Assembly (NCBI GenBank): GCA_021286645.1
Contig: JAJTBZ010000047.1
Location: 1-43,043 of the forward strand
Direction: 5' to 3'
DNA from: Ignavibacteria bacterium
GTDB taxonomy: Bacteria; Bacteroidota; Ignavibacteria; Ignavibacteriales; Ignavibacteriaceae
DNA length: 43,043 nucleotides
Every line of letters starts with the position of its first letter. Positions within the stretch are counted from its first letter, which is position 1. This document shows positions 4,321-31,300 of this stretch, one piece after another. The position numbers and the translations under genes were made by a program. The notes below the pieces were generated by a model. That model did not search any database and had not been told where the DNA came from. It saw only the letters and a list, made by a program, of their open reading frames with translations.

Positions 4321-5037
4321 CTACATGCACATTTTCTTCCAAAGTTTTGTTGGCAGAAACAATAAACTGCCGCCATCGAACAGCGGGGAATTTGCCAGGT
4401 TAATTACATGCCGCCCCTTGCCGGCAAGAAACTGACGCACCGTTTCGCCGCATGAATATTGGCTCAGGCTGCCCATAATATAAATTGCATTATCAAAAAT
4501 GCCGGTACAGCCTCCGAAAAAACCCGACTTCATTCCGGGTAGTTCAATATCAGAACTATTCACGAGCAGGCTCTCTTTGCCGGCAGCTTCCAACTGTTTA
4601 TGTATCCCTTCATCGGAAGTGATAAAAGCATTATCGGTGATGGGCAACACACTGCACCGGGTATATCCCTGGTTTACATGAATAAATTCTTTTTCATGGC
4701 AGGTTTTAGCCAGAACCGTATCGGTAATTTCCCGGTGGTGGATAAATACTGCACCGGTCGCCACACCATTGTAATATGCAGAGGCCGGGTATAAATTCCC
4801 GACGGGCTTTTCTCCTTTAATTAATTGAATACCGGATTTCCTAAGCCGCTGTATATATTTTTCGGGTGTATTGGGTGCGTAAACAAGATAATTATCAACT
4901 TTACAGAAAAATACGTCCGGATGGTTTGAAATCTCCGGGTACGTAATACCGTTGGTTTCGAACGGAATAATATCGGCATACATACCAAGTGCCCCGAGTA
5001 CTGCTGAAGGGGCTGCCGCGTTAACAATACATAACAT
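4321..5037 (-). CDS. DUF6873-like protein (possible guanidine-modifying-enzyme fold)
   Basis: A 238-residue soluble protein. Recognisable segments are GYTRCSVLPITDNAFITSD (about 131-149), the GMKSGFFGGCTG turn (about 176-187) and SPLFDGGSLLFLP near the C-terminus. These resemble the family now called DUF6873, which is predicted to adopt the fold of arginine deiminase-type enzymes. The Cys that deiminases carry near the C-terminus is not evident here (GGSLL instead), so catalysis is unproven. The start overlaps the upstream radical SAM gene by 17 bp, implying coupling. Confidence in the gene is high; in the family it is moderate. Confidence 0.7.
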   Translation of the reverse strand: MLCIVNAAAPSAVLGALGMYADIIPFETNGITYPEISNHPDVFFCKVDNYLVYAPNTPEKYIQRLRKSGIQLIKGEKPVGNLYPASAYYNGVATGAVFIHHREITDTVLAKTCHEKEFIHVNQGYTRCSVLPITDNAFITSDEGIHKQLEAAGKESLLVNSSDIELPGMKSGFFGGCTGIFDNAIYIMGSLSQYSCGETVRQFLAGKGRHVINLANSPLFDGGSLLFLPTKLWKKMCM

Positions 5038-6031
5038 GAAAAGACCTGCCTTGTACTAATGGATCTGAAATAAATGAAATCGATTTACCACGCGATGCCA
5101 GCGCGATCTTATTTGCTGCCTTATAACCTACAGCATAATTAAACTCCTCCGGAGCCACCCGGATGCTGATTGCAGAATTCGGTTGTGCCTGTACCTGCTT
5201 TACCAGCAATTCCTGCCATATAGCCGTAAGAACCAGTTCACGGAACGATACATGGTACGGCCCGGCAATTAACTCGTTACCGGTAATAAATCCCTCGGAA
5301 GGGTGAAGGCCGAGTTTAATAACAGTAACACCAAATTTTTCGAACAGTAAATAGATGTTTTTTGACCAATTAACAGCATCGTCGATCGATAGAGGCGAGT
5401 AGCTGCCTTTTTCGTACAGAGCCGCTAAGCTGGTACCCCGAATAACAAGCGCGGGGTAAATTCTGGTATTCGAAGCGCCCAGGTTAATTATGCCCTGTGC
5501 GGTTGCCGCTGATTTTTCAAAACTATCACCGGGCAGGCCGAGCATCATTTGTAAGCCAAGTTCGATACCTGCAGAAAGAATCAATTCTGAAGCGCGGGCT
5601 ACATCTTCTGCGGTATGCCCCCGGCCGGTTTGACGCAGCACTCCATTATCAAGAGACTGGGCGCCAAGTTCAACGGTTGTAACATGGTATCGTTGCAGTA
5701 ATTGTATTACCGCGGGTGATATATAGTCGGGACGCGTTGAGAGGCGGATACCCTGAACCGCGCCGCTTTCAACATAACGAGCGGCAATTTTTAAATAGCT
5801 TTCCTGAACATCAACAGGAATACCGGTGAAATTTCCACCGAAGAACCCAATATGTTTAACCGCGTCGGCATGCCGAAAAGTTGCAAGGTGCGATGAAATT
5901 ATTTCGTGTATTGCCTCGGGGGCAGGGGCTTCCTGCTTCCCGGTAATTTTTTGTTGATTGCAAAAAATACATTGGAACGGGCACGCGAGTTCCGGAACGA
6001 ATATGGGTATGGTATAATGTTTTTTCTTCAT
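5021..6031 (-). CDS. Elp3-like radical SAM protein (COG1243-type, no acetyltransferase domain)
   Basis: A 336-residue radical SAM enzyme. The [4Fe-4S]/SAM motif is CPFQCIFC (CxxxCxxC, about residues 17-24), followed by FFGGNFTG (the GGE-like SAM contact) and ELGAQSLDNGVLRQTGRGH (about 121-139), which is typical of Elp3/HemN-like enzymes that follow a substrate over several turns. It ends without the GNAT domain of true Elp3. The family is widespread in anaerobes and its substrate is unknown. It is the first gene of the leftward cluster, preceded by about 560 bp of non-coding DNA. It is not of the PflA-like family that normally accompanies AMMECR1/MEMO. Confidence 0.85.
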   Translation of the reverse strand: MKKKHYTIPIFVPELACPFQCIFCNQQKITGKQEAPAPEAIHEIISSHLATFRHADAVKHIGFFGGNFTGIPVDVQESYLKIAARYVESGAVQGIRLSTRPDYISPAVIQLLQRYHVTTVELGAQSLDNGVLRQTGRGHTAEDVARASELILSAGIELGLQMMLGLPGDSFEKSAATAQGIINLGASNTRIYPALVIRGTSLAALYEKGSYSPLSIDDAVNWSKNIYLLFEKFGVTVIKLGLHPSEGFITGNELIAGPYHVSFRELVLTAIWQELLVKQVQAQPNSAISIRVAPEEFNYAVGYKAANKIALASRGKSISFISDPLVQGRSFHVMYC

Positions 6032-6596: not shown

Positions 6597-8840
6597 ATGA
6601 AGATAGTATATAGTACTACGTTGGCATTTTTGTGGGGAATGTTTTTCCTGCTCGTGCTGCCAGGCGGGGCAGTACATGCCCAGAGCCTGGGAAATCTCAA
6701 TGGAATTGTCCGTGATTCTGTTTCCGGTGAAGCAATAGCGTTTGCGACCGTGTATATTCCCGATCTGAAAAGAGGGGCAACAACCAACGACCATGGTTTT
6801 TTTGTTATAAATGGTATTCCTGCCGGAAAAGAATATTCAGTACGTGTTGCCTGTGTTGGTTATATAACAAGAATGCACAAAGCAAAAATTACCGCGAACG
6901 CCGATACAAAAGTTGTATTCCGACTTGTTTCAACGGTAATAATGATGCCGAAAATTGAAAAGATTGGTGAAAAACAACAAGAGAAAAATTCAACCGATCT
7001 TGGCTTGCAGCGTGTAAGCATTAAGGAAATGGAGATGCTGCCTAAGGGTGTGGAGATGGATGTGTTCCGCTCTTTGCGTACAATACCCGGAGTGCAGTCT
7101 ACCGGTGATGCTTCGGCCAAGTATTATGTGCGCGGTGGTGCAAGCAACCAGAACCTGGTATTGCTCGATGGCGTAACAATTTACAATCCTTTCCATGCTT
7201 TGGGTATGGCCAGTGTAATAGACCCCGAATTAATAAATTCAATAGAATTTTACAAGAGCGGTTTCCCTACCGAGTATTCAAGCCGCTTATCCTCTATCCT
7301 GAATATTGTTTCGAAAAAAGGGAACGCGAATAACTTTTCCGGAAAGGCAGCAGCCAGTTTTCTTTCTACCAAAGGATTGCTCGAAGGGCCGTTACCGTTT
7401 GGTTCCTTTATCATGACAGGCAGAAAGAGTACTTCATCGCAAATAAGTAATAAGTTTTTCGGAAAAAATATTCCATTCGATTTCTACGATTACTTCTTTA
7501 GGGTAAATTACGATAATCAGAACGACGTTGATATTCCCCGTTTTTCTATTAGTGGTTTCTTCAGTAATGATAAGTTGATTAATAATGATCCGTATATCGC
7601 CGATTTTAACTGGGCGAATAATATGATCAACTTTACCTATCATCAATTATTCATGGGTTCATTCATTGAAGTTGGCGTTTCTTCCAGTAATACTACGGGC
7701 GAAGTTAAACCGAATTTATCTTCTGCTAAACCAAAAAGTAACAGCCTGAATGATCTGAGTATAAAGGTTGATATGACACGAATTTATTCTAATAAGAATG
7801 AAATTCGTGGCGGATTATTATTTCAGACAATAAAAAATGATCTGTACTTCACCATGCCCAAAGGAATTGTATCGACAAATACGGTAAATGCAGGGTTTAC
7901 CGGAGGCTATCTGAAGTTTAAGCTTATGCAATTTGAAGATCTGGGAATTGATCTGGGCAGCCGTTTTAATCTGGCCGGGTTAAATACAAATGGCGGAATG
8001 ACACTGGAACCGCGTATCAGTGTAACATACCGGCCTCATCCTCTGGTAGGCCTGAAAGCCGCTTATGGTGAATATCAGCAGGAAATGACTACAACTGCAG
8101 ATGAAAACGAAGTGGTTTCGTTGTTTGAACCCTGGGTTATTATTCCTGAATATATGAAACCTTCGCGTGCAAAGCATTATACCGGTGGTGTTGAGCTGAA
8201 TGCAACTGAGGAACTTACGTTAACTGGCGAGATATATTTAATTAATCAGGAGAACGTTCCGTCTTTGAACTTTAATAAACTGCTGGCTTCCGATCCCGAT
8301 TTTCTACCAGCCACGCAGGAGTCGTATGGCCTGGAAGGGTCAGTTAAATATCAGGCTGAAACGTATCTGGTAAGTGTGGGGTACTCGCTTTCATACGCGT
8401 ATAAAGTTGTAGAGGGCTGGCGGTCATATCCACGATATGATTCGCGGAATAATCTGAATATCTCAATAGAGAAAAATTTTGGCGATGGTTGGACTGCAAG
8501 TGTTATGTGGCTCTATAATTCGGGTTCACCATTTACACAAATGGTAGGATTTTATGATAAAATGGACGTGCAGAATTTATTCCAGTTATGGGTACCGTAT
8601 GAGGCAGCAAGTTCGTATGGCTACTTTATTGACAGGAATCTCGGAAGGCTTCCCGATTATCATCGAATGGATGTGAACGTGTCGAAGAAATTCGATTTTG
8701 GATTCGCCCGCTTCCTGATAGATTTTAATATCTTGAACGTGTACAACAGGAAGAACCTGTTCTATTTTGAACGGCAAACCGGCAAACGTGTTAATATGTT
8801 GCCGATATTACCAACAGTTTCGTTGAAAGCTGAGTTTTGA
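6597..8840 (+). CDS. TonB-dependent outer-membrane receptor with carboxypeptidase-like N-terminal domain
   Basis: A 747-residue protein. A signal peptide (about 1-29, ending AVHAQ) is followed by a CarboxypepD_reg-like domain (about 33-115, GIVRDSVSGEAIAFATVYIP), a plug domain (about 140-240, with RTIPGVQSTGDASAKYYVRGG and VLLDGVTIYNP) and a beta-barrel ending in Phe (SLKAEF), as expected for an outer-membrane protein. It is short for the family, like receptors that travel with DUF4249 lipoproteins rather than SusCD pairs. The ligand is unknown. Its TGA overlaps the TTG start of the next gene (TTGA), so the two are coupled. Confidence 0.92.
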   Translation: MKIVYSTTLAFLWGMFFLLVLPGGAVHAQSLGNLNGIVRDSVSGEAIAFATVYIPDLKRGATTNDHGFFVINGIPAGKEYSVRVACVGYITRMHKAKITANADTKVVFRLVSTVIMMPKIEKIGEKQQEKNSTDLGLQRVSIKEMEMLPKGVEMDVFRSLRTIPGVQSTGDASAKYYVRGGASNQNLVLLDGVTIYNPFHALGMASVIDPELINSIEFYKSGFPTEYSSRLSSILNIVSKKGNANNFSGKAAASFLSTKGLLEGPLPFGSFIMTGRKSTSSQISNKFFGKNIPFDFYDYFFRVNYDNQNDVDIPRFSISGFFSNDKLINNDPYIADFNWANNMINFTYHQLFMGSFIEVGVSSSNTTGEVKPNLSSAKPKSNSLNDLSIKVDMTRIYSNKNEIRGGLLFQTIKNDLYFTMPKGIVSTNTVNAGFTGGYLKFKLMQFEDLGIDLGSRFNLAGLNTNGGMTLEPRISVTYRPHPLVGLKAAYGEYQQEMTTTADENEVVSLFEPWVIIPEYMKPSRAKHYTGGVELNATEELTLTGEIYLINQENVPSLNFNKLLASDPDFLPATQESYGLEGSVKYQAETYLVSVGYSLSYAYKVVEGWRSYPRYDSRNNLNISIEKNFGDGWTASVMWLYNSGSPFTQMVGFYDKMDVQNLFQLWVPYEAASSYGYFIDRNLGRLPDYHRMDVNVSKKFDFGFARFLIDFNILNVYNRKNLFYFERQTGKRVNMLPILPTVSLKAEF

Positions 8841-9796
8841 GACAATACCTGGTATTATGTTTGGTTGTAGTTATGGCATTCTTCCTGAATTCGTGTAAAG
8901 AAGGTTTTGAACCGAATGCACCGTTTCAGGAAAAATATGTTCTCAACTGTATCCTAAATGCAAATGACAGTGTTCAAATAATGACAATAACACGCGGGTA
9001 CCCGCCGAATGCCGATGGCAGTGCTACACCAACAGGTGATCTCGGTGTGAAAAATGCACTGGTACGAGTATGGGTAGATGATTCGGTTTATTTTTTTCAT
9101 GATACAATAACCGAACGGAGCGATGGTTCGCATGGCGGAGGAAAAGTTTCATTTTATGTCTGTAAATACTATCGTAGCAGTCCCGGAAAAGCGCATGTAG
9201 TTGAAGCAATATTACCGGGAGGTAAAAAGTTAAAATCGTCATTCGATATGCCGCAACCGGTCTCGATTACTTTCGACCCGGCAGTTACGGTGCCAACGCT
9301 TCAGTCCGATAATTTCTTTTTAAGCTGGGAAACAACAGATAGGAACGTATATTTTTATCCCCGGCTTATTCTCTCGTATAAATACCAACAGGATACGAGC
9401 TGGATTTTAAAAACAAAGAAATTGCCGGTGGACTATGTTAGCAGAAATGGCCAGACTGAATATTTTTATGCGATACCCTCTGCTAACCATACAATAAAAG
9501 TTTCGAAGAATGCATTGGGTTCGGCAATTACCGATATCGCTCAGGCTGATCAGGACAAAACGCATTATAAAATTCTGGGTATGAATCTGGAGGTTTATAC
9601 ATTAGATAAATATCTCGCGAATTACTATGCGAATACGGCAATGCAGGGTGGTGATTTTACCATCCGGCTTGATGAAGTGGATTTTACCAATATTACCGGC
9701 GGGCTGGGTGTTTTTGCCGGTTATGTTCATCAGACATTATTTATAAATCTTAACACCGATTTTATTTGGTCACTGGGTTTTAATAAAGAAAAATAA
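8837..9796 (+). CDS. DUF4249-like outer-membrane lipoprotein, copy 1
   Basis: A 319-residue lipoprotein with lipobox FLNSC (Cys20). TTG is the start, four bases overlapping the receptor stop. Features matching DUF4249 are the N-terminal beta-strand block with YVLNCILNANDSVQIMTITR and the C-terminal GGDFTIRLDEVDFTNITGG with GLGVFAG. In Bacteroidota DUF4249 genes sit next to small TonB-dependent receptors and are thought to be surface or periplasmic partners of the receptor; no substrate is established. It is closely similar to the protein at 11411-12358. Four bases separate it from the following propeller lipoprotein. Confidence 0.85.
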   Translation: MRQYLVLCLVVVMAFFLNSCKEGFEPNAPFQEKYVLNCILNANDSVQIMTITRGYPPNADGSATPTGDLGVKNALVRVWVDDSVYFFHDTITERSDGSHGGGKVSFYVCKYYRSSPGKAHVVEAILPGGKKLKSSFDMPQPVSITFDPAVTVPTLQSDNFFLSWETTDRNVYFYPRLILSYKYQQDTSWILKTKKLPVDYVSRNGQTEYFYAIPSANHTIKVSKNALGSAITDIAQADQDKTHYKILGMNLEVYTLDKYLANYYANTAMQGGDFTIRLDEVDFTNITGGLGVFAGYVHQTLFINLNTDFIWSLGFNKEK

Positions 9797-9800
9797 GAGA

Positions 9801-11276
9801 ATGAAAACACGAGGGAGCTCGTTAGTTTTATTCTATATGCAGTGGATTGTGTTGTTGCTGTTATTTTCATCCTGTAAGCGGGATGTTAGTATAACACAAC
9901 CGGAACCGCTTGAACCTGACAGGAAACTGGTTATTCACTCTGTTCCTGCATATTGCGCTGTATATATAAACAACCGGAACAGTGGTTTCTTTACAGCAGA
10001 TACTCTGTTTCGGCTGGAAAAGACCGATACGTTGGTAACGCTGAAGTATCAGTATTACCGCGATAGTGTCTTTGTTGTTCACGTGCCCGATGAGGGACTG
10101 GTAGAGTTGTTCATTGATTTTACGAAAAATCCCGCGATGTGGGGAAATCTCAATTGTACTGCCAAACCGGTAACTTGCAGCATTATCAGGGATGGCATGA
10201 TGATGAGCGAGAAGACTCCCTATATTATGCGAAATCTGCTGCCGGGTAAATATACGCTTACGTATCAGGCGCCAAACTGCCGGGAAGCGACAAATACATT
10301 TATTGTTCGCAGCGGCCAAACAACCAATGGCTTTATGGCTCTGGAAGATACTTCGGTTTGGGTTTCATATACGCGGGCCAATTCCGGCATACCCGAAAAC
10401 AGAGTGATCTGCGCTATCGTTGATGACCACGATGTAAAGTGGTTCGGAACCCCCGGATCGGGCCTGGTTCGCTATGATGAAAAAAAATGGACGGTTTACA
10501 ATATGGCCAATTCCGGTATAATGAGTAACCGCATTCAGTGCATAGAAAAAGATCGGTCCGGTAACCTGTGGATGGGTACGGATTGCGGCCTGTGCAAATT
10601 CGACGGGACAAATTTTTACCGGTTTACCAAAAGTATGAATACCATACCGGATGACTATGTGACAACTCTGAAGATGGATAAGAGCGGTATTTTGTGGGTT
10701 GGTACGTTAAACGGGTTTGTCCGGTTCGATGGTAATACCTGGAAAAAAACTAAATGGGATATGCACGACGATGCAGCATGGGTTACGGGCTTTGCTTTTA
10801 CTCAGTCAAACCGGATTTATTTGGCAACTATGGCCGGTGTATTGCGTATGAAAGATGATACTACTTATATAGCGCATAGCTGGTATATGGATTCAACCAT
10901 GACAATAAGCAGGGCGATGAACGCGATTGCCGTTGGGAGCGATGATATTCTCTGGGCAGGTTCACTGAATGCAAGAATGCTGTTGGGCGGTTTGTTTTGT
11001 TTTGATGGTACCATCTGGAAAAATGATTTTTCCGGTTTACCCGATCACAACATTAATTGTATTTTCATCGATGACAATAATGAAAAATATATCGGGACCG
11101 AAAATGGATTGATTCGATTCAGTGATTATTATGCAGATAAGAAAATTTATAACGTGTATAACACGAATCTGAAATCAAATTCAATACATTGCGTAGTGAA
11201 AGACTCTAATGGAAATGTCTGGGTGGGCACCTATGATGGCGGTATTGTAAAATACAAAACAAAGAGTGACCGGTAA
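9801..11276 (+). CDS. Lipoprotein with PEGA-like domains and Reg_prop beta-propeller, copy 1
   Basis: A 491-residue protein with signal peptide and lipobox LFSSC (Cys25). Residues 45-175 hold two PEGA-like beta-sandwich repeats (the second ending in LLPGKYTLTYQAPNC). From about 185 to 485 there are repeated blades of the two-component regulator propeller type: NLWMGTDCGLCKFDG, ILWVGTLNGFVRFDG, KYIGTENGLIRF and NVWVGTYDGGIVKY. No kinase or DNA-binding part is attached, so it is an extracytoplasmic binding or sensing module. It forms a transcription unit with the receptor and DUF4249 genes and has a paralogue at 12374-13864. Confidence 0.88.
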   Translation: MKTRGSSLVLFYMQWIVLLLLFSSCKRDVSITQPEPLEPDRKLVIHSVPAYCAVYINNRNSGFFTADTLFRLEKTDTLVTLKYQYYRDSVFVVHVPDEGLVELFIDFTKNPAMWGNLNCTAKPVTCSIIRDGMMMSEKTPYIMRNLLPGKYTLTYQAPNCREATNTFIVRSGQTTNGFMALEDTSVWVSYTRANSGIPENRVICAIVDDHDVKWFGTPGSGLVRYDEKKWTVYNMANSGIMSNRIQCIEKDRSGNLWMGTDCGLCKFDGTNFYRFTKSMNTIPDDYVTTLKMDKSGILWVGTLNGFVRFDGNTWKKTKWDMHDDAAWVTGFAFTQSNRIYLATMAGVLRMKDDTTYIAHSWYMDSTMTISRAMNAIAVGSDDILWAGSLNARMLLGGLFCFDGTIWKNDFSGLPDHNINCIFIDDNNEKYIGTENGLIRFSDYYADKKIYNVYNTNLKSNSIHCVVKDSNGNVWVGTYDGGIVKYKTKSDR

Positions 11277-11410
11277 TAATATTGGAAGCAATATACAGGG
11301 GTGAAAACACGAACATTATAAGAAAATGAATTTATTTGAGTGCAGCGTTCGGCTGCTAATTTAACAGGTGAGTTCGGCTTAACTGCCGGGCTACAAAATC
11401 AAATTTAGGT

Positions 11411-12358
11411 ATGAAAAATATATTAGTGTGTGCGGCAACATTAGGTCTGGCTCTACTTCTGTTTGCCTGCAAGGAAAGCTTTGAGCCCAATGCTCCATTT
11501 CAGGAAAAGTATGTTCTGAATTGTTTGATTAATGCTGATGACAGCATACAGACGCTTACCATTACCAGGGGCTATGCCCCCAACCCGGATGGCAGTGCAA
11601 CACCAATGGGTGATCTTGGTGTAAAGGATGCTTTGGTCCGTATTTGGGTTGAAGATTCAGTATATTTTTTCCATGATACCATAACAGATAGAACAGATGG
11701 CACGCATGGCGGTGGAAAAGTCTCATTCTATGTATGTAATTTTTACCGTACGAGTCCTGGTAAAAAACATACGGTCGAAGCTATACTTCCCGATGGTAAA
11801 AAGCTTGTTTCAAGTTTTACCATGCCCTCACGGGTTAATATAACCATGGACCCGGCTGTTTCGGTACCATCGATAAATGCGGTCAGTTATTTTCTTCAAT
11901 GGGAAACCTATGACCGGGATGTCTATTTTTATCCACGATTAACTCTTAACTATTCTCATCTGGAAAACAATAATTGGGTGCCGGGCGCAAAAATTCTACC
12001 TTCAGATTATATCAGTAGAAACGGTACAATGCAGTACATGTACCCCATACCATCAGCATCGCACGTTGTTAAGTTTGAAAAAGCTGCGCTAACTTCGGCG
12101 ATAAACGATTTACTGAAAATTGATTCGGATAAGAGCCATTTCAAAATCAGCGGCATGTGGCTTGATGTTTATACTCTGGATAAATATTTAACAAGCTATT
12201 ACTCGAATACGGCAATGCAGGGAGGCGATTTTACAATCCGTCTGGATGAGGTAGATTTTACCAATGTTAGCGGGGGACTTGGTGTATTTGCCGGATACGT
12301 GCACCAGACAGTTTTTGTTAACCTAAATGAAGAATATATCCATTCACTTGGATTTTAA
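11411..12358 (+). CDS. DUF4249-like outer-membrane lipoprotein, copy 2
   Basis: A 315-residue paralogue of the protein at 8837-9796, with lipobox LLFAC (Cys20) and ATG start. The same N-terminal CKESFEPNAPFQEKYVLNC block, the GGGKVSFYVC segment and the C-terminal TAMQGGDFTIRLDEVDFTN block are retained. The most variable part is about residues 130-230, between the conserved beta-strand blocks, which is where ligand or partner specificity might have diverged. It lacks its own adjacent receptor gene and presumably shares the one at 6597-8840 or uses another elsewhere. It is followed after 15 bp by the second propeller lipoprotein. Confidence 0.85.
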   Translation: MKNILVCAATLGLALLLFACKESFEPNAPFQEKYVLNCLINADDSIQTLTITRGYAPNPDGSATPMGDLGVKDALVRIWVEDSVYFFHDTITDRTDGTHGGGKVSFYVCNFYRTSPGKKHTVEAILPDGKKLVSSFTMPSRVNITMDPAVSVPSINAVSYFLQWETYDRDVYFYPRLTLNYSHLENNNWVPGAKILPSDYISRNGTMQYMYPIPSASHVVKFEKAALTSAINDLLKIDSDKSHFKISGMWLDVYTLDKYLTSYYSNTAMQGGDFTIRLDEVDFTNVSGGLGVFAGYVHQTVFVNLNEEYIHSLGF

Positions 12359-12373
12359 TACTCAGGTACAGAT

Positions 12374-13864
12374 ATGTTAAAAAATCAATTACGTCATTTA
12401 TTATTATTACCGATTTTATTCACGATGTGCTTGTTTATATCATCATGCGATAAGGATGTTAGTATAACGCAGCCGGAGCCCGCTAAACCAGACAGGCGGT
12501 TGGTAATACGGTCAAAGCCAAAATACTGCTTTATATTTGTGAATAACAGAAATAGCGGATACTTCACACCCGATACTATGCAGGTGCCCGATACCCTGAT
12601 TAGGCTCGATGAGACCGATACTCTTATTACCCTCAAATATCAATACTATCGTGATAGTGTGTTTACGGTTCATATACCTGCCGAAACTACCAAGGAATTG
12701 TATATCGATTTTTACGCTAATCCGGCTATGCGGGGTAACTTTTATTGTACAGCAAAACCAACTAATTGTACCATATTGTTGAACGATTCCTCAATTAACG
12801 CGAAGACGCCTTTTACCATTAAAAATCTTTTACCGGGCAAGTATAATATTACCTATCAGGCATATAGCCATAGGGATTTAAAACAAACCTTTATCATTCG
12901 CAGCAGTCAGACAACAAATGTATTTATGGCTCCAGAGGATACAACTGTATGGCTTTCCTATACTCATGAAAATTCACCGTTGCCAGATAATTCACTCTAT
13001 TCGGTATGCGTAGATAAAAAAGACGTGAAATGGTTTGGTACAGCCTCGACGGGTCTGGTTCGGTTCGATGAAAAGAGCTGGAAAATTTACAATATGAGCA
13101 ATTCAAATATCCCCAGTAACAGGATTAACTGTATTACCACGGATGCGCAAAATAACATCTGGATAGGAACGGATTTCGGGCTGGCTAAATTTGATGGTAC
13201 AAATTTTACTACGTACCGAACAAGTAATGCTCCATTGCCCGATGACTGGGTTTCTTCTATTACATTCGATCAGAATGGTATTATGTGGGTCGGTACGTAC
13301 AGGGGAGTTACCCGATTCAACGGAAGTACATGGAAGACAATATTTTCATCCACTACAGCAGTCCCCTCAGTATGGGTGACCGGTATCGCCATTGGTACGC
13401 AGAATGATGTTTATATGGCTACAAGAACGGATCTGGTACGGTACTGGAATAACCAGATAATCCGTTATGGATATACCATGGATACAACATTTAGTGTTAG
13501 TACAGCATTAAACGCGGTTGCTGTTGGGCCGGATGATGTTGTGTGGTGTGGTGCTTTAAGCGCGAATGGCCTGTTTGGCGGAATATTTAGCTTCGACGGG
13601 TATTTTTGGAAATCCGATTACACCGGCCTTCCGAATAACAATATGAATTGTATATATATTAATAAGAAAAATGAAAAGTTTGTCGGAACGGATAACGGAT
13701 TGGTTCGTTTTACAAATTATTTTCTTGACAGACTGATATATTATAAGGATAATACAAATCTAAAATCAAATGTTATTCGAGGTATCAGTAAAGATTCCAA
13801 TGAAATATACTGGATTGTTACCGGCGGCGGCGGCGTTACCAAGTACAAATCGAAAAATGGATAG
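12374..13864 (+). CDS. Lipoprotein with PEGA-like domains and Reg_prop beta-propeller, copy 2
   Basis: A 496-residue paralogue of the protein at 9801-11276. It has lipobox FISSC (Cys25), with Asp at +2 where copy 1 has Lys; this could alter sorting, though rules for this lineage are not known. Two PEGA-like domains (about 35-180) precede a propeller with blades such as NIWIGTDFGLAKFDG, IMWVGTYRGVTRFNG and KFVGTDNGLVRF. The last blade ends IYWIVTGGGGVTKY, degenerate compared with copy 1 (NVWVGTYDGG). It ends the block and is followed by a strong terminator. Confidence 0.87.
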   Translation: MLKNQLRHLLLLPILFTMCLFISSCDKDVSITQPEPAKPDRRLVIRSKPKYCFIFVNNRNSGYFTPDTMQVPDTLIRLDETDTLITLKYQYYRDSVFTVHIPAETTKELYIDFYANPAMRGNFYCTAKPTNCTILLNDSSINAKTPFTIKNLLPGKYNITYQAYSHRDLKQTFIIRSSQTTNVFMAPEDTTVWLSYTHENSPLPDNSLYSVCVDKKDVKWFGTASTGLVRFDEKSWKIYNMSNSNIPSNRINCITTDAQNNIWIGTDFGLAKFDGTNFTTYRTSNAPLPDDWVSSITFDQNGIMWVGTYRGVTRFNGSTWKTIFSSTTAVPSVWVTGIAIGTQNDVYMATRTDLVRYWNNQIIRYGYTMDTTFSVSTALNAVAVGPDDVVWCGALSANGLFGGIFSFDGYFWKSDYTGLPNNNMNCIYINKKNEKFVGTDNGLVRFTNYFLDRLIYYKDNTNLKSNVIRGISKDSNEIYWIVTGGGGVTKYKSKNG

Positions 13865-13899: not shown

Positions 13900-13931
13900 A
13901 AGGTACGGCCTTCCGGCTGTACCTTTTTTTT
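13900..13931 (+). terminator. Intrinsic terminator after the lipoprotein block
   Basis: An 11-bp stem (13900-13910 with 13915-13925, one G-T wobble) closes on a TTCC tetraloop and runs into a T-tract (13924-13930). It follows the second propeller gene by about 35 bp and separates the block from the TPR gene. Confidence 0.85.
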
Positions 13932-15332: not shown

Positions 15333-16772
15333 TTACTTTTTTAAACAAAACGAAAATGTTGTTCCGGTACCCGCGGTGCTTGTTGCGGTAATAGTACTGC
15401 CGTGGGCCTCCACAATATGCTTAACAATTGCCAACCCTAAACCGGTGCCACCGGTTTCGCGTGAGCGTTCCTTATCAACCCGGTAGAATCGTTCAAATAT
15501 ACGTGGCAGGTGTTCGGCCGCTATACCGATGCCGTTATCTTCGATAGAGAATTGAACTGATTTATCGATTGGTTTACAGGAAATTTTAATACAGGTGCCT
15601 TCGGGATTATATTTAATAGCGTTATCTATCAGGTTTGAAAAAACCTGCTGCAGACGGGATCGGTCGCCATATACCTGAATGCCTGAATTCTTCGGAATTT
15701 CAAGGGTGATTTGTTTTTGCTCGGCTAATACTTTAAACGTGTCGGATATCTGCTGGAATAACTCATCGATACTAAAATAGCGGAAGCTTAGTTTCAACTC
15801 ACCGGATTCAATTCGGGAAATCTCAATCAGATCGTTAAGCAGGAAATTCAGCCTGTCAACATGTGCTAAAGCTTTTGATAAATATTTGGTATTAACGGCG
15901 GGGTCGTTAATTGCGCCTTTTAATAAAGTCTCAAGAAATGCCTGCATGGAAAATAGAGGAGTGCGTAGTTCATGCGAAACATTTGCAAGGAACTGAGAAC
16001 GTACCTTCGCGAGGCGTTCCAGTTCAATAACATCGGTATTAATTTGTTTGGCAAGACTGTTAATCGAATCGGCGAGCATGCGTGTCTCATCGTGTGAAGT
16101 AACATCAATTTGTAAATTGTAGTTACCCCGCGAAATCTCGTTTACTTTGGTGATTATATTGCGAAGGGGTTTTGAAATGCGTTCTGAAACAAAGATGCTG
16201 AGAATTAGAATAAGTATCATTGCAATAATGCCGGCATAAGCAATTTTAACACGCATGGAAGAAATCTGTTCCTGCATTTTTTGCAGTGAGAGAGAGGCCC
16301 GCAGATACTTAATTCCTGCAAGATCTCCTTTCAGGCCGGGAATGTCAATTTTTTTTGCTACATAAAAGTACTCTATGCTGGTGCTTTTACTCATTCGCTT
16401 ATCGCGCCCGGTACCGTAAATGGCGGCAAGATTTATTTCGGGACGAGTCCGATGATTTTCGAGGAAGCGCAATAATTGCGGCTCAACCTCAGAATCGAGT
16501 AGAACAGTGCCGATACTATCGATTGCAGTAATACGGATTTGTGTTTGTACCGTGTGTTGGTGAAAACTTTCGTAGGTGTGCAAAAAAGAACCGGTATTGG
16601 AATCGGCAAGGTAATGGGAAATGATGTCAATTTCGTTCAGCAATTCCGATTCAATATTATCTTCAATCTGGCTTTCCAGTTCGTACTCTATAATTACGGC
16701 TACAGAGATAAGCGTAACCAAAGCGAACAGGATATACGTAAGAGAAATTTTATTGCGGATTGACCGTATCAT
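15333..16772 (-). CDS. phoR: Sensor histidine kinase, PhoR-like
   Basis: A 479-residue membrane kinase. TM1 is about residues 9-29, followed by a periplasmic domain of about 145 residues, TM2 (about 176-196), HAMP (about 197-249) and HisKA with phospho-acceptor His267 in ANVSHELRTPL. The HATPase domain has N box DNAIKYNP, G1 DNGIGI and G2 GGTGLGLAIVK. The substantial periplasmic domain differs from E. coli PhoR, which has almost none, and resembles Gram-positive PhoR. Assignment to phosphate rests on context: it overlaps the phoB-like gene by 4 bp and lies beside a Pho box and the pst operon. Confidence 0.88.
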   Translation of the reverse strand: MIRSIRNKISLTYILFALVTLISVAVIIEYELESQIEDNIESELLNEIDIISHYLADSNTGSFLHTYESFHQHTVQTQIRITAIDSIGTVLLDSEVEPQLLRFLENHRTRPEINLAAIYGTGRDKRMSKSTSIEYFYVAKKIDIPGLKGDLAGIKYLRASLSLQKMQEQISSMRVKIAYAGIIAMILILILSIFVSERISKPLRNIITKVNEISRGNYNLQIDVTSHDETRMLADSINSLAKQINTDVIELERLAKVRSQFLANVSHELRTPLFSMQAFLETLLKGAINDPAVNTKYLSKALAHVDRLNFLLNDLIEISRIESGELKLSFRYFSIDELFQQISDTFKVLAEQKQITLEIPKNSGIQVYGDRSRLQQVFSNLIDNAIKYNPEGTCIKISCKPIDKSVQFSIEDNGIGIAAEHLPRIFERFYRVDKERSRETGGTGLGLAIVKHIVEAHGSTITATSTAGTGTTFSFCLKK

Positions 16773-23427: not shown

Positions 23428-25590
23428 TTATTCTACGCCAAGTTCGTTGAGTAGTTTATCGGCACCGCCGAGTTTCTGCGTTACAAACAGAATATATCGT
23501 ATATCTGCGCCAATTGAGCGGCTGTAAGATTCACTCCATGCGAAATCATTAATTGTTGCCTCAAAAGCCCTGTCGAAATTAAGACCAATCATTTCGCCCC
23601 AGGCGTTTAATACCGGGCTGCCGCTATTGCCGCCGGTAGTATCCATGTTATATAAAATATCTACCGGAACATCGTTGAGCTTTTTATGGCGGAACCTGCC
23701 AAAATCTTTTTTATCATAGAGAGCACGAAGTTTTGGGCTTACGGTATACACGCCGCCTGCAACACCTTTTTCCATTACGCCGGCAAGAGTGGTTATCGGT
23801 TTGTAGTAGGTGGCATCTACCGGTGTGTATCCGCGTACATAGCCGTACGTGAGTCGAAGTGTTGAATTCGCGTCCGGTACAAACGATTTCTGCTTGAAGT
23901 CGTGTTTTACATCAAGGTATTTAGGCAGTAGTACATTTAATTTCCCGTTTATTGTTTCATATCGTTTCTCGATAGGTTTATATGCAGTATCCAGTTTCAT
24001 CATGAAAGAAATAAGCGGGTCAACCTGCCATGAAAGGTTCGATGAATCTTTAACCGCGCTCATAAATTTGGCGGAATCAAAAACGATGGAATGGTTGAGC
24101 AGCGAGTTAATTTCTGATGTGAGTTGTTCCTCTGTTTTATTTCTGAATTGGCTCAGGGGTTCAAAGTTACTTAATTCCGGCAATGTAACGGCTTCGGAGA
24201 TGATACGTTTTAACAGCAGGCCATCAACATAGCAGTCAGCTTCTTTGAGATCCTCGGCATAGCCCTCGAACAACAGCGCGCGATTCTTTGCCGAGTACGC
24301 GGATTTTCTATCATTTTCCGGCTTGCACATTTCGGATTTATATTCAATTAGCTGGGTAGCAAGACGTGAAGCGTATATACGGGCACGGATACTGGAAACG
24401 AAAAAGCTTGTTCTGCCGAGTGCGCATTGCTCCATGTAGGCTTCGTCAATATCGTGTAACAAATCTTTGTAGGCAGCGGTGCGGATCTGATCAGCTAAAA
24501 TAAACTGCTGTAGTTCGGCTTCTTCCGCCTGTTTTTGTTTTACAAGTTCCAGCCTTTGCAACCCGAGAATTTTACCGCGATAATTTTTTTCGGTATTCGC
24601 GAGTGTCTTAATGCGCGATGAATATTTCAAAGCGAGTTCGGGGTTATTCTTGCCGAGCTCTTCATACAGGGAAATGAATGATTCAAAGAGCTTTGAAACG
24701 TAGGGAAGCTGATATTTTTCCTGAAACTCCATGTATTTGGCAGGGAAGTGGCGGAACGTGCGTCCCGGGTACCCCAAAACAAAGACGAAATCGTTTTCAT
24801 CGACGCCGTTGGGATTAACTTTAAGGAAGCGTTTCGGGATAAACGGGATATTATTTTTTGAATACTCGGCGGGTTTACCATCGGGGCCGACGTATGCACG
24901 AACGAATGTAAAGTCGCCGGTATGACGTGGCCATACCCAATTATCATTTTCGCCGCCGAAATCGCCAACGCTGCGCGGAGGAACGAAAACCAGGCGGACA
25001 TCCTTGAGAATTTTATATCGAAACAGGATATATGTTTTACCGGTAAACATTTCGGATACTTCGGCTTTAATACCGGGATTACTTTTCTCTTCCGATTTTG
25101 TAAGTTCGCGAATCTTCTTTTGGATCAATGTTACCCTTTCGGCCGGAACAGATGCTGCGGAGGCTGCCTGTAAAATTTCTTCAGAAACATCTTTATATGA
25201 TTCGGTAATCATGCATGTCAGGCCCTGTGCCGGAATTTCTTCTTCACGCGAAGCGGCATAAAAGCCATCGGCGAGGTAATTCTTTTCTACAGTGCTCGCC
25301 TGTCGGACAAAGTCGAAAGTGCAGTGATGATTCGTGAGAATTAATCCGTTACCCGATACAAATGAGCCGGTACAGCCGCCTAAACGAACCAGAGCGTCAA
25401 CCAGGCTGGTGCCGGAGGGGTTATAAATATCAGTTATAGGGATCTTGAGCCCCGCGCTTTTCAGATCAAGTTTTAGTATCTCGCTCAGGGGATACATACC
25501 CTCATCGGGTGGAGCGGGAAACATGAGCGTGCAGGGGAGGCAGAGCACAACTGCCCAAATAAGTATAAGTTTGCTGAAAGGATTACGCAT
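23428..25590 (-). CDS. S46-family dipeptidyl-peptidase, DPP11-like specificity
   Basis: A 720-residue exported serine exopeptidase with a signal peptide (about 1-25). The chymotrypsin-like triad is visible: His89 in TNHHC, Asp216 in GENDNWVWPRHTGDF and Ser656 in TGGNSGSP, with an alpha-helical domain inserted between (about 280-560). In this family the residue 18 after the catalytic Ser sets the S1 pocket: Gly in DPP7, Arg673 in P. gingivalis DPP11. Here it is Arg674 (GLNFDR), which predicts removal of dipeptides with Asp or Glu at P1. AGGTGA precedes the ATG. It points to peptide scavenging in the periplasm. Confidence 0.93.
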   Translation of the reverse strand: MRNPFSKLILIWAVVLCLPCTLMFPAPPDEGMYPLSEILKLDLKSAGLKIPITDIYNPSGTSLVDALVRLGGCTGSFVSGNGLILTNHHCTFDFVRQASTVEKNYLADGFYAASREEEIPAQGLTCMITESYKDVSEEILQAASAASVPAERVTLIQKKIRELTKSEEKSNPGIKAEVSEMFTGKTYILFRYKILKDVRLVFVPPRSVGDFGGENDNWVWPRHTGDFTFVRAYVGPDGKPAEYSKNNIPFIPKRFLKVNPNGVDENDFVFVLGYPGRTFRHFPAKYMEFQEKYQLPYVSKLFESFISLYEELGKNNPELALKYSSRIKTLANTEKNYRGKILGLQRLELVKQKQAEEAELQQFILADQIRTAAYKDLLHDIDEAYMEQCALGRTSFFVSSIRARIYASRLATQLIEYKSEMCKPENDRKSAYSAKNRALLFEGYAEDLKEADCYVDGLLLKRIISEAVTLPELSNFEPLSQFRNKTEEQLTSEINSLLNHSIVFDSAKFMSAVKDSSNLSWQVDPLISFMMKLDTAYKPIEKRYETINGKLNVLLPKYLDVKHDFKQKSFVPDANSTLRLTYGYVRGYTPVDATYYKPITTLAGVMEKGVAGGVYTVSPKLRALYDKKDFGRFRHKKLNDVPVDILYNMDTTGGNSGSPVLNAWGEMIGLNFDRAFEATINDFAWSESYSRSIGADIRYILFVTQKLGGADKLLNELGVE

Positions 25591-28394: not shown

Positions 28395-31300
28395 ATGAAA
28401 AGCAAAATCCTGGTACTAACATTAATTTTATTTTCAATAGTATTTGGCCAGTCAAATCATACAGTAACGTTTACCGGCAGCGCGTCGGATTTTACCAGCG
28501 CGGAAAAAATTTACGGCGGTGATGACGTTGACTATTATGTAACATTTGACGGCTCGGCATTTTATATTGGTGCATTTCGGGTGAACAGCCCCACCTTTGC
28601 CGAATATGACCACTTTACGGTGTATTTTGATACCGATCCTGTCCCGGGACTTACCACTTCGGGCAACGGTACGACCACCGGTGTGAATTGGGATAGTAAG
28701 ACACCCACGCTCCCGTTCCGGGCAGACTATCGCGCGTGTATCCGCAGGGCAAACTCGGGTGAAAGCTTTTTGAGTAACTGGACCGGCTCGGCATGGAATA
28801 CTACAGGTTCAAACGGTAAAGGCTGGACCCAGTATACCACTGACCGTGCATTGGAGGTGCGCATTCCTTTTACCGATATCGGCAGCCCCGCGGGCGTGTA
28901 TTTTGCAATGTATATGTCCTACGGTAACTATGGCGGCGGGTTTTATGGCGCAAATAACAGTCCCACGTACCCTATTACTTTTTCGGGTTCAACCATGTCC
29001 GGCTATTTTGGCGGTATAGGATTAAGCGCGCCGAATTGTACACCGGTAAGTTATTATAATACGCCTATTACTGCATCGCTCAGCAATGCCACCCCTGCTT
29101 CGGGTGCCAAATATGGAAAAGTAACATTTTCTACCGGCACAATCGGAACCTCGGGTAGTTTCAGCATTGCTTCCGGCGGCAGCATGGAATTTACCGGCGG
29201 AACGCTGAATATTGGGTCGACTGATACCGTTTATTGTAGCGCGGCGAGTAAAATTTCTCAAACCGGCGGCGGCTTTGGTGCTGCATCGAATCTCGGCTGG
29301 GTTAAATTCTCCGGCTCCAATACGCTTTCAGGCACGTTGTCGCTATACAAAGCTGTGCTTACCGGATCGGTAAACTTTGGCAGTGACGCAACGATTACCA
29401 ACACTTTAAAAATGCAAAGCGGCAGTTCTGTTGTAACCAACGCTCCGAAATATGGAACCGGCTCACTTCTATTATATAATTCCGGCGGTACATTCAGCCG
29501 CAGCCTCGAGTGGAGTGCCTCATCAGGTGCAGGGTACCCGCAATATGTGCAGCTATCGGGTAATACCAAAGTAGATCTAAGTCAGAACAGCGGGGGTGCC
29601 CGTGTTATGGCGGCCGATCTTACAATTGATTCCGGTAGTGAATTAACTCTGAATGCCATGGCTGCTTCGCTTACCGTGAACGGTAACCTTACCAATAATG
29701 GTACGCTTACTCTTTCAACAGTTGCAGGCGGCGATTTGACGGTAAAAGGAAACTTTACCACTGCCGGCACGGTGAATCATAACACCCGGCAGATCTCGTT
29801 TGCAGGCAGCACGGAGCAGTTGATAAATGGTTTAAGCGCTATCGATTATCTGGAAGTGAATAACACGGCCGGTGTAAAACTGGGCAGTATAACCGGAAAA
29901 GTTCTTACTATTGGTAAGCGGTTGCTGATGACGGCAGGTAATTTAACCACTGATGTAGATACCGTAATGCTAGGTTCAACCGCGGTTCTTCAGAATGAAG
30001 GCGCGAATCGATATGTAATAGGTGTTATCGGTTCTTCCCGCAGTGTTACGTCAGGGCAGGATTTTGGTGGTATTGGCCCCGTATTTGCTTCGGGTACCGA
30101 TATCGGAACTGTAGCATCATATCGTTTAAGCGGCGCGGCAGGCGCGGTTACTGCAAACGGTCATACGGGTATCAATCGCCAGTGGCGTGTAACCCGTACC
30201 GGTACGGGCACATTTGCATCGCGTCAGTTAACCTTTAACTGGGTTTCGAATGATGATAACAGTAAAGACCTTACAACATCACAAATATTCAGGAGTGCTG
30301 ATAACGGTACAACCTGGTCAGCAATCTCGCACTTTACAAACGCGTCAACAACGCGTTCAGTTTCGACAAATGATACATTGGTTGGTTACTATACAATATC
30401 GGATGTAAATAATCCGCTTGGTTATGTGCCTGCACTTACAACAATTGCGGCAGGTAACTGGTCTTCGCCCTCTATATGGAATGGTAACGCGGTTCCCAAT
30501 ACCGGCGCCGATGTAATCATTAACCATAATGTTACACTCGATATGAATGCCAGTGTAACTACACTGACAGTTAACTCGGGCAAGACATTCACAGCCAGCG
30601 ACGCTACTCCCCGCACGCTTACCATAGCGGCAGGCGGTTCGCTGTTGAACAGCGGAACATTTGTCCCTGCCGGTGGTACTGTGCTCTTTAGCGGTGCAGG
30701 ATCGGTTGGCGGCACAACAAGTTTGAACAATGTTACCATTTCCAATGGTGTTGATTTTGGCAGCGCAACTACTATTAACGGTACATTGCGTATTAATACC
30801 GGCGGCTATGTAAATACAAACGCGCCAATTTATGGCACCGGTGCAACTTTACAGTATGCAACCGGCGGCGTGTATGGCAGAAGCTTTGAATGGAAAGATA
30901 CAACGGGCGCGGGTTACCCGTATAACGTGCAAATGTCCAATAATACAATATTAAACCTTGGTAATGGCGGCGCGGCTGTGTATCGTCGTATAGCCGGTTC
31001 TTTAACTATAGATGCCGGTTCGGCGGTTACTATGGATACCTTAGGCGCATCAATGAGCAAAGCACTTGAAGTAAAAGGCAGCGTGCTGAATAACGGACGT
31101 CTGTTACTCTCTTTTACTTCGGGCGGTGATCTGAATGTAGGCGGAAATTTTACCAATAATGGCGTATTTACCGCTAACGGACGGGCAATTAATTTTAACG
31201 GTTCGGCATTGCAGAACATTGTTACCGGAAGCAGCTCCGCTACTACAGTAGATAATATGATTATCGCGAACTCCAATAGCGTTGCATTAAATGGCGTTAA

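Follow-up and report, generated by a model that had tools for sequence, protein, structure and literature searches.

A conserved three-gene system of a TonB transporter, a DUF4249 lipoprotein and a PEGA-propeller lipoprotein in one order of Bacteroidota

What the TonB-dependent transporters of Bacteroidota import is determined by their lids and accessory lipoproteins. BtuG and XusB are described as propeller lipoproteins that act as lids on TonB transporters, and BtuH and SGBP as accessory lipoproteins of such transporters (PMC10404256; PMC13142918; PMC7618045). The closest described systems differ in how these parts are combined. BT2172-BT2173 of Bacteroides thetaiotaomicron joins a TonB transporter and a DUF4249 protein in one conserved operon, and disruption of BT2172 or BT2173 is stated, with reference to a preprint, to have similar consequences (PMC11003636). 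BtuB-BtuG-BtuH, for vitamin B12 uptake, comprises a transporter, a lid lipoprotein and a further surface lipoprotein, with a seven-bladed propeller lipoprotein among them (PMC10404256), XusA-XusB, for xenosiderophore uptake, sets a lipid-anchored propeller beside a TonB transporter (PMC13142918), and SusCD utilisomes consist of transporter, lid and accessory surface lipoproteins (PMC7618045).

Here we describe a locus of five open reading frames (ORFs), T-D1-P1-D2-P2, all on the + strand at positions 6597-13864 of a 43,043-nucleotide stretch of DNA from an Ignavibacteria bacterium (the window; contig JAJTBZ010000047.1 of assembly GCA_021286645.1), in which T is a predicted TonB-dependent transporter, D1 and D2 are DUF4249 lipoproteins, and P1 and P2 are lipoproteins with PEGA domains and a Reg_prop propeller. 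An earlier note, made from the letters and an ORF list, had described a TonB receptor, an overlapping DUF4249 lipoprotein, a PEGA/Reg_prop lipoprotein and a repeat of the lipoprotein pair, and both the ORFs and the Pfam matches agree with this description; its statement that DUF4249 is known beside TonB receptors likewise accords with the published association (PMC11003636). The triad is a real conserved three-gene system, so far in one order, and a variant of the known lidded TonB transporters that lies outside the BtuB, XusB and PorZ families.

T scores 50.5 bits for CarbopepD_reg_2 and 48.9 bits for Plug (cut-off 23.9), each above the cut-off of its model; plug and signal peptide are present and the barrel is assigned by homology, which identifies T, as judged from sequence, as a TonB-dependent transporter. 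Among solved structures, T matches only 9gbc_A, the XusAB entry (PMC13142918), at E ≤ 1e-5 (E 2.3e-15, over profile positions 8-252). However, XusB is a DUF4374 lid, whereas P carries PEGA and Reg_prop and has a separate lid candidate beside it. In BtuB-BtuG-BtuH the propeller is the lid and binds B12, whereas T stays far below the BtuB models (TIGR01779 15.4 bits against a cut-off of 599.7, NF007926 14.7 against 836) and no cobalamin riboswitch is found in the window. Compared with SusCD, T is smaller than SusC, and the five genes include no glycoside hydrolase; a SusD-type lid was rejected, as the D proteins match DUF4249 alone at E ≤ 1. The sensors BT4663 and BT3049 and PorZ share propeller fold and repeat with P, but P combines a single propeller with PEGA domains and a lipid anchor, is devoid of signaling domains, and falls below the PorZ cut-off. 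Unlike the locus described here, DUF4249 loci from outside the order showed no PEGA-propeller partner in the 20 cases examined, which do not include BT2172-BT2173. The literature, as far as titles and abstract starts reach (with preprints and most subscription papers outside the coverage), held no match to a DUF4249-PEGA-propeller triad.

Recurrence, inheritance and duplication of the triad

The T-D-P order recurs across related genomes, which places the arrangement beyond chance. A profile of P (A3, 42 rows) was searched in 97 related genomes, the window's genome included, and gave 91 matches at E ≤ 1e-60, 83 of which, in 52 genomes, include the first PEGA domain (PEGA1), two of them cut short. 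The corresponding profile of D (A4, 45 rows) gave 128 matches at E ≤ 1e-25 in 67 of the 97 genomes. P and D occur together in 52 genomes, D alone in 15 and neither in 30, and no genome has P without D (Fisher 3.5e-14, with shared ancestry ignored). Runs with D hold 76 of the 83 P copies, while 64 of the 128 D lie near P, namely 56 of the 60 best-scoring ones and 8 among the remainder.

The gene order was followed in 79 receptor loci, which represent the best 80 matches of a contig scan with a receptor alignment (A5). Their record names comprise 55 of the Ignavibacteri-/Melioribacter- type, 18 'Bacteroidetes bacterium', four 'bacterium', one Stygiobacter electus and one Candidatus Lokiarchaeota, and from these names the order is taken as Ignavibacteriales. 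Sequence of 700 bp or more is available behind 78 of the T genes; D directly follows T in 77 of these, and in 72 the two overlap by exactly 4 bp, as in the window, where the stop of T overlaps the TTG start of D1 at 8837. This is the adjacency to a TonB transporter gene expected of a DUF4249 lid, and T and D would presumably be co-transcribed. P follows D in 51 of the 68 T-D pairs with room for it, and the spacing between D and P has a median of 2 bp and extends from -74 to 113. The earlier note had proposed a constant third partner and a genome survey for DUF4249 beside PEGA and Reg_prop lipoproteins; such a partner does exist in a large clade, as the counts of P in runs with D and of P after D demonstrate, and with P in 52 of 97 genomes the neighborhood is not unique to this genome.

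On a quick receptor tree of 69 rows (52 with P and 17 without, the window included), the presence of P requires 7 changes compared with 15.4 in shuffles, none of 500 shuffles being as low, hence P is inherited with receptor clades, with some losses or gains. Most P-less rows, 11 in number, group with a single P-bearing row in one set of 12 that has weak support, and in five rows of this set a carbamoyl-phosphate synthase gene lies upstream. A long branch (1.19) leads to the window's receptor, which belongs to a starred set of 31 rows, 25 with P.

Within the window, D1 and D2 are sisters, as are P1 and P2, with support of 1.0 each. The copies differ at 67 of 91 four-fold sites in one pair and at 75 of 104 in the other, which amounts to saturation in both, so there is no sign of recent gene conversion between the copies; the D-P duplication therefore appears old in the window's lineage and compatible with a single event for the pair. 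The claim of the earlier note that the two lipoproteins are duplicated as a unit is consistent with these sister pairs but does not hold in general, since among the runs examined in the 97 genomes a plain D-P-D-P run behind one receptor is found in the window only, and one D with two or three P is common (G006, G063, G073, G081, G086). P copies are each other's nearest kin within the locus in L050, L080, L081, L082, L083 and L086, though not in L063 and L075. Mixed runs exist in G062 (DPPDPD), G074, G079 (DPDPPP with a second T) and G084; the two D of L063 (G074) are sisters with support of 0.83, those of L060, L073 and L081 are not, and G062:C55 lies outside the tree. General co-duplication of D and P was rejected, as the mixed runs gave no sister D-P pairs or lay outside the tree, and gain of an extra P per T-D is the commoner event.

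Several further observations concern these loci. L149, labeled Candidatus Lokiarchaeota, holds T, D and the start of P, and is probably a bacterial contig binned into an archaeal assembly. The window's genome has two more distant DUF4249-receptor pairs with no P nearby, G000:C63 (L018) and G000:C1 (L017), with receptor scores of 733 and 342 (the latter gene cut by a contig end) compared with 1077. In P-less receptor relatives, a lipoprotein of 153-156 aa, recognized by length and lipobox, follows DUF4249 (L126:12360-12821, L142:11367-11834, L144:11161-11625, L151:3411-3881, L154:11432-11902); that of L144, the only one of the five scanned, has a DPBB domain.

Table 1. Features of the T-D1-P1-D2-P2 locus, in window positions
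Feature	Positions	Strand	Description	Basis
T	6597..8840	+	TonB-dependent transporter/receptor, 747 aa; signal peptide, CarboxypepD_reg-like N-terminal domain, plug, barrel	Pfam, homology
D1	8837..9796	+	DUF4249 lipoprotein, 319 aa, TTG start; proposed lid	Pfam, AlphaFold2 model pLDDT 91.0
P1	9801..11276	+	Lipoprotein with two PEGA domains and seven-bladed Reg_prop propeller, 491 aa	Pfam, model pLDDT 91.6, propeller match 3v9f
P1, first PEGA domain (PEGA1)	9921..10139	+	aa 41-113; most conserved domain of the family, proposed docking module	Conservation
P1, second PEGA-like domain (PEGA2)	10140..10346	+	aa 114-182	Pfam, model, conservation
P1, propeller	10347..11270	+	Seven-bladed, aa 183-490; long low-conservation stretch at aa 321-420	Model, fold match, conservation
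D2	11411..12358	+	Second DUF4249 lipoprotein, 315 aa; 70% identical to D1 over 296 aa	Pfam, alignment
P2	12374..13864	+	Second PEGA-PEGA-propeller lipoprotein, 496 aa; 53% identical to P1 over 479 aa	Pfam, alignment
Terminator-like hairpin	13900..13925	+	Intrinsic-terminator-like, 35 bp after P2; possible operon end	11 pairs, 6 G-C, T-rich tail; consensus match only

Domains and predicted folds of the two lipoproteins

A lipobox cysteine, judged by eye, is present in D1, D2, P1 and P2. In P, all Pfam matches exceed their cut-offs, with Reg_prop at 75.7 (P1) and 61.9 (P2) bits and PEGA at 33.0 and 31.2 bits. At E ≤ 1, the Pfam matches to PEGA number two in P1, with the best at 42-108, and a single one in P2, at 123-185; two PEGA domains are assigned to each P because of the P1-P2 alignment and the model strands in 41-180 ahead of the propeller. 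The AlphaFold2 model of P1 (63 rows, pLDDT 91.6, pTM 0.84) consists of a signal helix, beta domains at 41-113 and 114-182, and a propeller with seven counted blades and a closing strand at 187-190. This propeller is close to those of BT3049 (3v9f; Z 33.0, 284 residues, rmsd 2.4), BT4663 (Z 32.2) and PorZ (5m11; Z 29.4, 298 residues, rmsd 2.9), with BT4673 also among the closest solved propellers, and the sequence E-values of P to the propellers of hybrid two-component sensors (HTCS) and PorZ reach 5e-74. The match list of the fold search was filled by the propeller, so the PEGA part was barely probed.

Conservation in P declines from PEGA1 (mean 0.486) through PEGA2 (0.453) to the propeller (0.402), where ten-residue blocks of 321-420 range from 0.25 to 0.41; PEGA1 stands at 0.486 against 0.411 for the remainder of P (one-sided p about 0.001). 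In lone relatives of P, which are lipoproteins about 410 aa long, the match to the family profile starts no earlier than position 113; these proteins hence are without PEGA1, and T or D is a neighbor in none of their six loci (L189-L193 and L197, with L191 a 4.6-kb contig). PEGA1 thus marks the transporter-associated form of P, and because it is both the most conserved part and the one missing from the lone relatives, we infer that it docks P on T-D. Four of the six lone relatives have C-E-E-E after the lipobox, and Pfam finds one PEGA and Reg_prop in that of L189.

DUF4249 (PF14054; cut-off 28.5) is matched by D1 with 49.2 and D2 with 43.8 bits over positions 12-266 of 269 and is their sole Pfam match at E ≤ 1. 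The AlphaFold2 model of D1 (80 rows) is mainly beta and contains two helices, both in the C-terminal half. Conservation is high at residues 268-295 (0.53, with 0.42 as the mean), yet confidence in the monomer model reaches its minimum at 271-280 (pLDDT 47), as would be expected for a loop that becomes ordered or folds on a partner. The sequence search gave no solved relative of D at E ≤ 1. The best fold match by VIA (Z 8.2, complement C3b, 98 residues, rmsd 2.9) and the cytokine receptors found by Foldseek (query TM about 0.2) were rejected as merely sharing a beta-sandwich.

The lipoprotein export signal published for Capnocytophaga canimorsus is C-X-K-(D/E)2-X, and that for Flavobacterium johnsoniae is SDDFE (PMC5080379). 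After the lipobox cysteine, D mostly reads C-[ED]-[ED]-x-F-x-P and P mostly C-[ED]-K-[ED]-V-S, and at least two acidic residues among the next four are found in 84% of 79 D and 68% of 75 P compared with 18% of 65 lipobox-like ORFs that these loci contain besides D and P, a comparison group that includes chance lipoboxes. As a family trend, the residues following the cysteine in D and P seem to resemble the published signals.

A proposed three-part uptake complex and its alternatives

In the reading that we favor, with moderate confidence, the five genes constitute one operon for a three-part outer-membrane uptake complex, namely a lidded TonB transporter with an accessory surface capture lipoprotein. 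The genes would be co-transcribed and their products physically joined at the cell surface, with D as a lipid-anchored lid on T and P standing on the complex by means of its N-terminal PEGA domain or domains, the propeller facing outside. This propeller would capture the ligand and hand it to the lid, comparable to BtuH for BtuB-BtuG and glycan-binding proteins for SusCD, TonB energy would drive import through T, and extra P copies or a second D-P pair would allow a single transporter to serve a broader set of ligands or to capture more.

A number of observations weigh against this proposal. P is missing after D in 17 of the 68 T-D pairs with room, hence the T-D core can manage without P, and seven of the 83 P copies lie away from D, on contigs of G001, G028, G067 (two), G068 and G084 (two), some of which may reflect contig breaks. 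The score gradient of D near P is partly built in, because the A4 profile was made from loci picked for holding P and its ranking favors such D. The window's own copies have poorer export signals (CKEGF and CKESF in D1 and D2, CKRDVS in P1, CDKDV in P2). No riboswitch or other Rfam match was found in the window or in five relatives. Upstream of T, a word test on 70 distinct regions, which are related to each other, against Markov shuffles found AAACCGGA in 9 regions (expected 0.8), AAGTGAAT in 11 (expected 1.8) and a TTAATT palindrome with a 4-base gap in three; this enrichment is weak, and no word occurs in the majority of the regions.

The roles of the two lipoproteins could be exchanged, with P itself as the lid and DUF4249 as the accessory protein, as the known lids BtuG and XusB are seven-bladed propeller lipoproteins (PMC10404256; PMC13142918) and XusA is the only solved match of T at E ≤ 1e-5. 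We consider this quite unlikely, since the constant partner of T is D (77/78) while P is absent after a quarter of the T-D pairs (17/68), DUF4249 loci from outside the order keep T adjacent (18 of 20) and have no P, two PEGA domains place the propeller far from its lipid anchor, and P carries Reg_prop with no match at E ≤ 1 to DUF4374, the XusB annotation. P may instead be co-expressed with the transporter and act separately, as a surface scaffold, an adhesin or a PorZ-like secretion component. The likeness of its propeller to PorZ, the seven copies that stand alone and the one-PEGA relatives away from T and D speak for such a role, which nevertheless seems unlikely, as the PorZ model NF052228 scores 76.0 and 50.8 bits against a cut-off of 260, no genome has PEGA1-bearing P without D, and the presence of P tracks receptor clades.

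A sensing role, as suggested in the earlier note, would make P signal the presence of the substrate, in keeping with the HTCS domains BT4663, BT3049 and BT4673 as the closest solved propellers. The likeness is restricted to the propeller, though: only PEGA and Reg_prop reach Pfam cut-offs in P, which is therefore not an HTCS, no kinase or regulator domain is present, and within the window, the stretch examined for a regulator, the histidine kinase gene at 15333-16772 lies on the opposite strand, past a tetratricopeptide repeat (TPR) gene, so that we regard sensing as very improbable. It is nearly as improbable that D, P or both face the periplasm and the operon is no surface system: to our knowledge no export signal has been defined for this order, and that of the window's P1 is poor, but export-signal-like residues occur family-wide and D is tightly coupled to the TonB receptor.

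Beyond Ignavibacteriales, no full-length P was found in a 395-genome sample of the phylum, with four candidates scored per genome, and the sole hit (G172) covers the propeller only. DUF4249, in contrast, is present in 190 of 296 genomes phylum-wide at E ≤ 0.001. Among 20 high-scoring DUF4249 loci from outside the order, with flanks of a few kb, T is adjacent in all except L203 and L220. In seven of the 20 (L201, L202, L204, L205, L206, L208, L211) DUF4249 is followed on its strand by a gene of a single family, whose proteins are about 590-880 aa long and match the L208 member in phmmer with E-values of at most 4e-36. Of the five members scanned, those of L201 and L208 have an alpha-2-macroglobulin-like MG2 domain above the cut-off, those of L205 and L211 have one that falls short of it, and that of L202 gives no match; a relative of the L208 member was not found among the ORFs of the order's loci. 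This MG2-type family after T-D indicates that the third position is filled differently by lineage, leading to the tentative suggestion that lidded TonB transporters of the DUF4249 type possess an exchangeable third slot, in which a lineage-specific surface protein docks on a common transporter-lid core, with the PEGA domain as a docking adapter and the propeller as a replaceable capture head. The slot might be filled by PEGA-propeller lipoproteins, often multiplied, in this order and by the MG2-domain family in other Bacteroidota, which is an equally tentative assignment. If true, this would be a modular tripartite uptake machine of a kind not encountered in the literature searched, which would raise the interest of the system. 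Its carriers are known mostly from metagenomes, and a constant third partner that is absent from the 20 outside loci offers a clear test of complex assembly and of DUF4249 cargo.

Ligand clues and neighboring genes

For many lid families, DUF4249 included, we know of no ligand. In many loci, among them L052, L072 and L074, the operon is arranged convergently with citF, a citDE fusion, a MmgE/PrpD gene and aconitase, and acs (acetyl-CoA synthetase) is found upstream of T in other or the same loci; the citF cluster is seen in 15 and the acs cluster in 22 of the 79 receptor loci, many of which are on short contigs. The only citF of the window's genome is on a separate 7.5-kb contig that shows no T, D or P, and the citF neighborhood is therefore read as inherited gene order and is at most a weak hint at tricarboxylate complexes as the ligand.

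The terminator-like hairpin after P2 is one of 10 such sites across the whole region, compared with 8.8 in shuffles (sd 3.1), i.e., there is no excess. Elsewhere, the window encodes a radical SAM protein at 5021-6031, a Peptidase S46 at 23428-25590 and, at 28395-33848, a protein of 1817 aa whose G8 domain scores 27.0 bits (cut-off 22.9).

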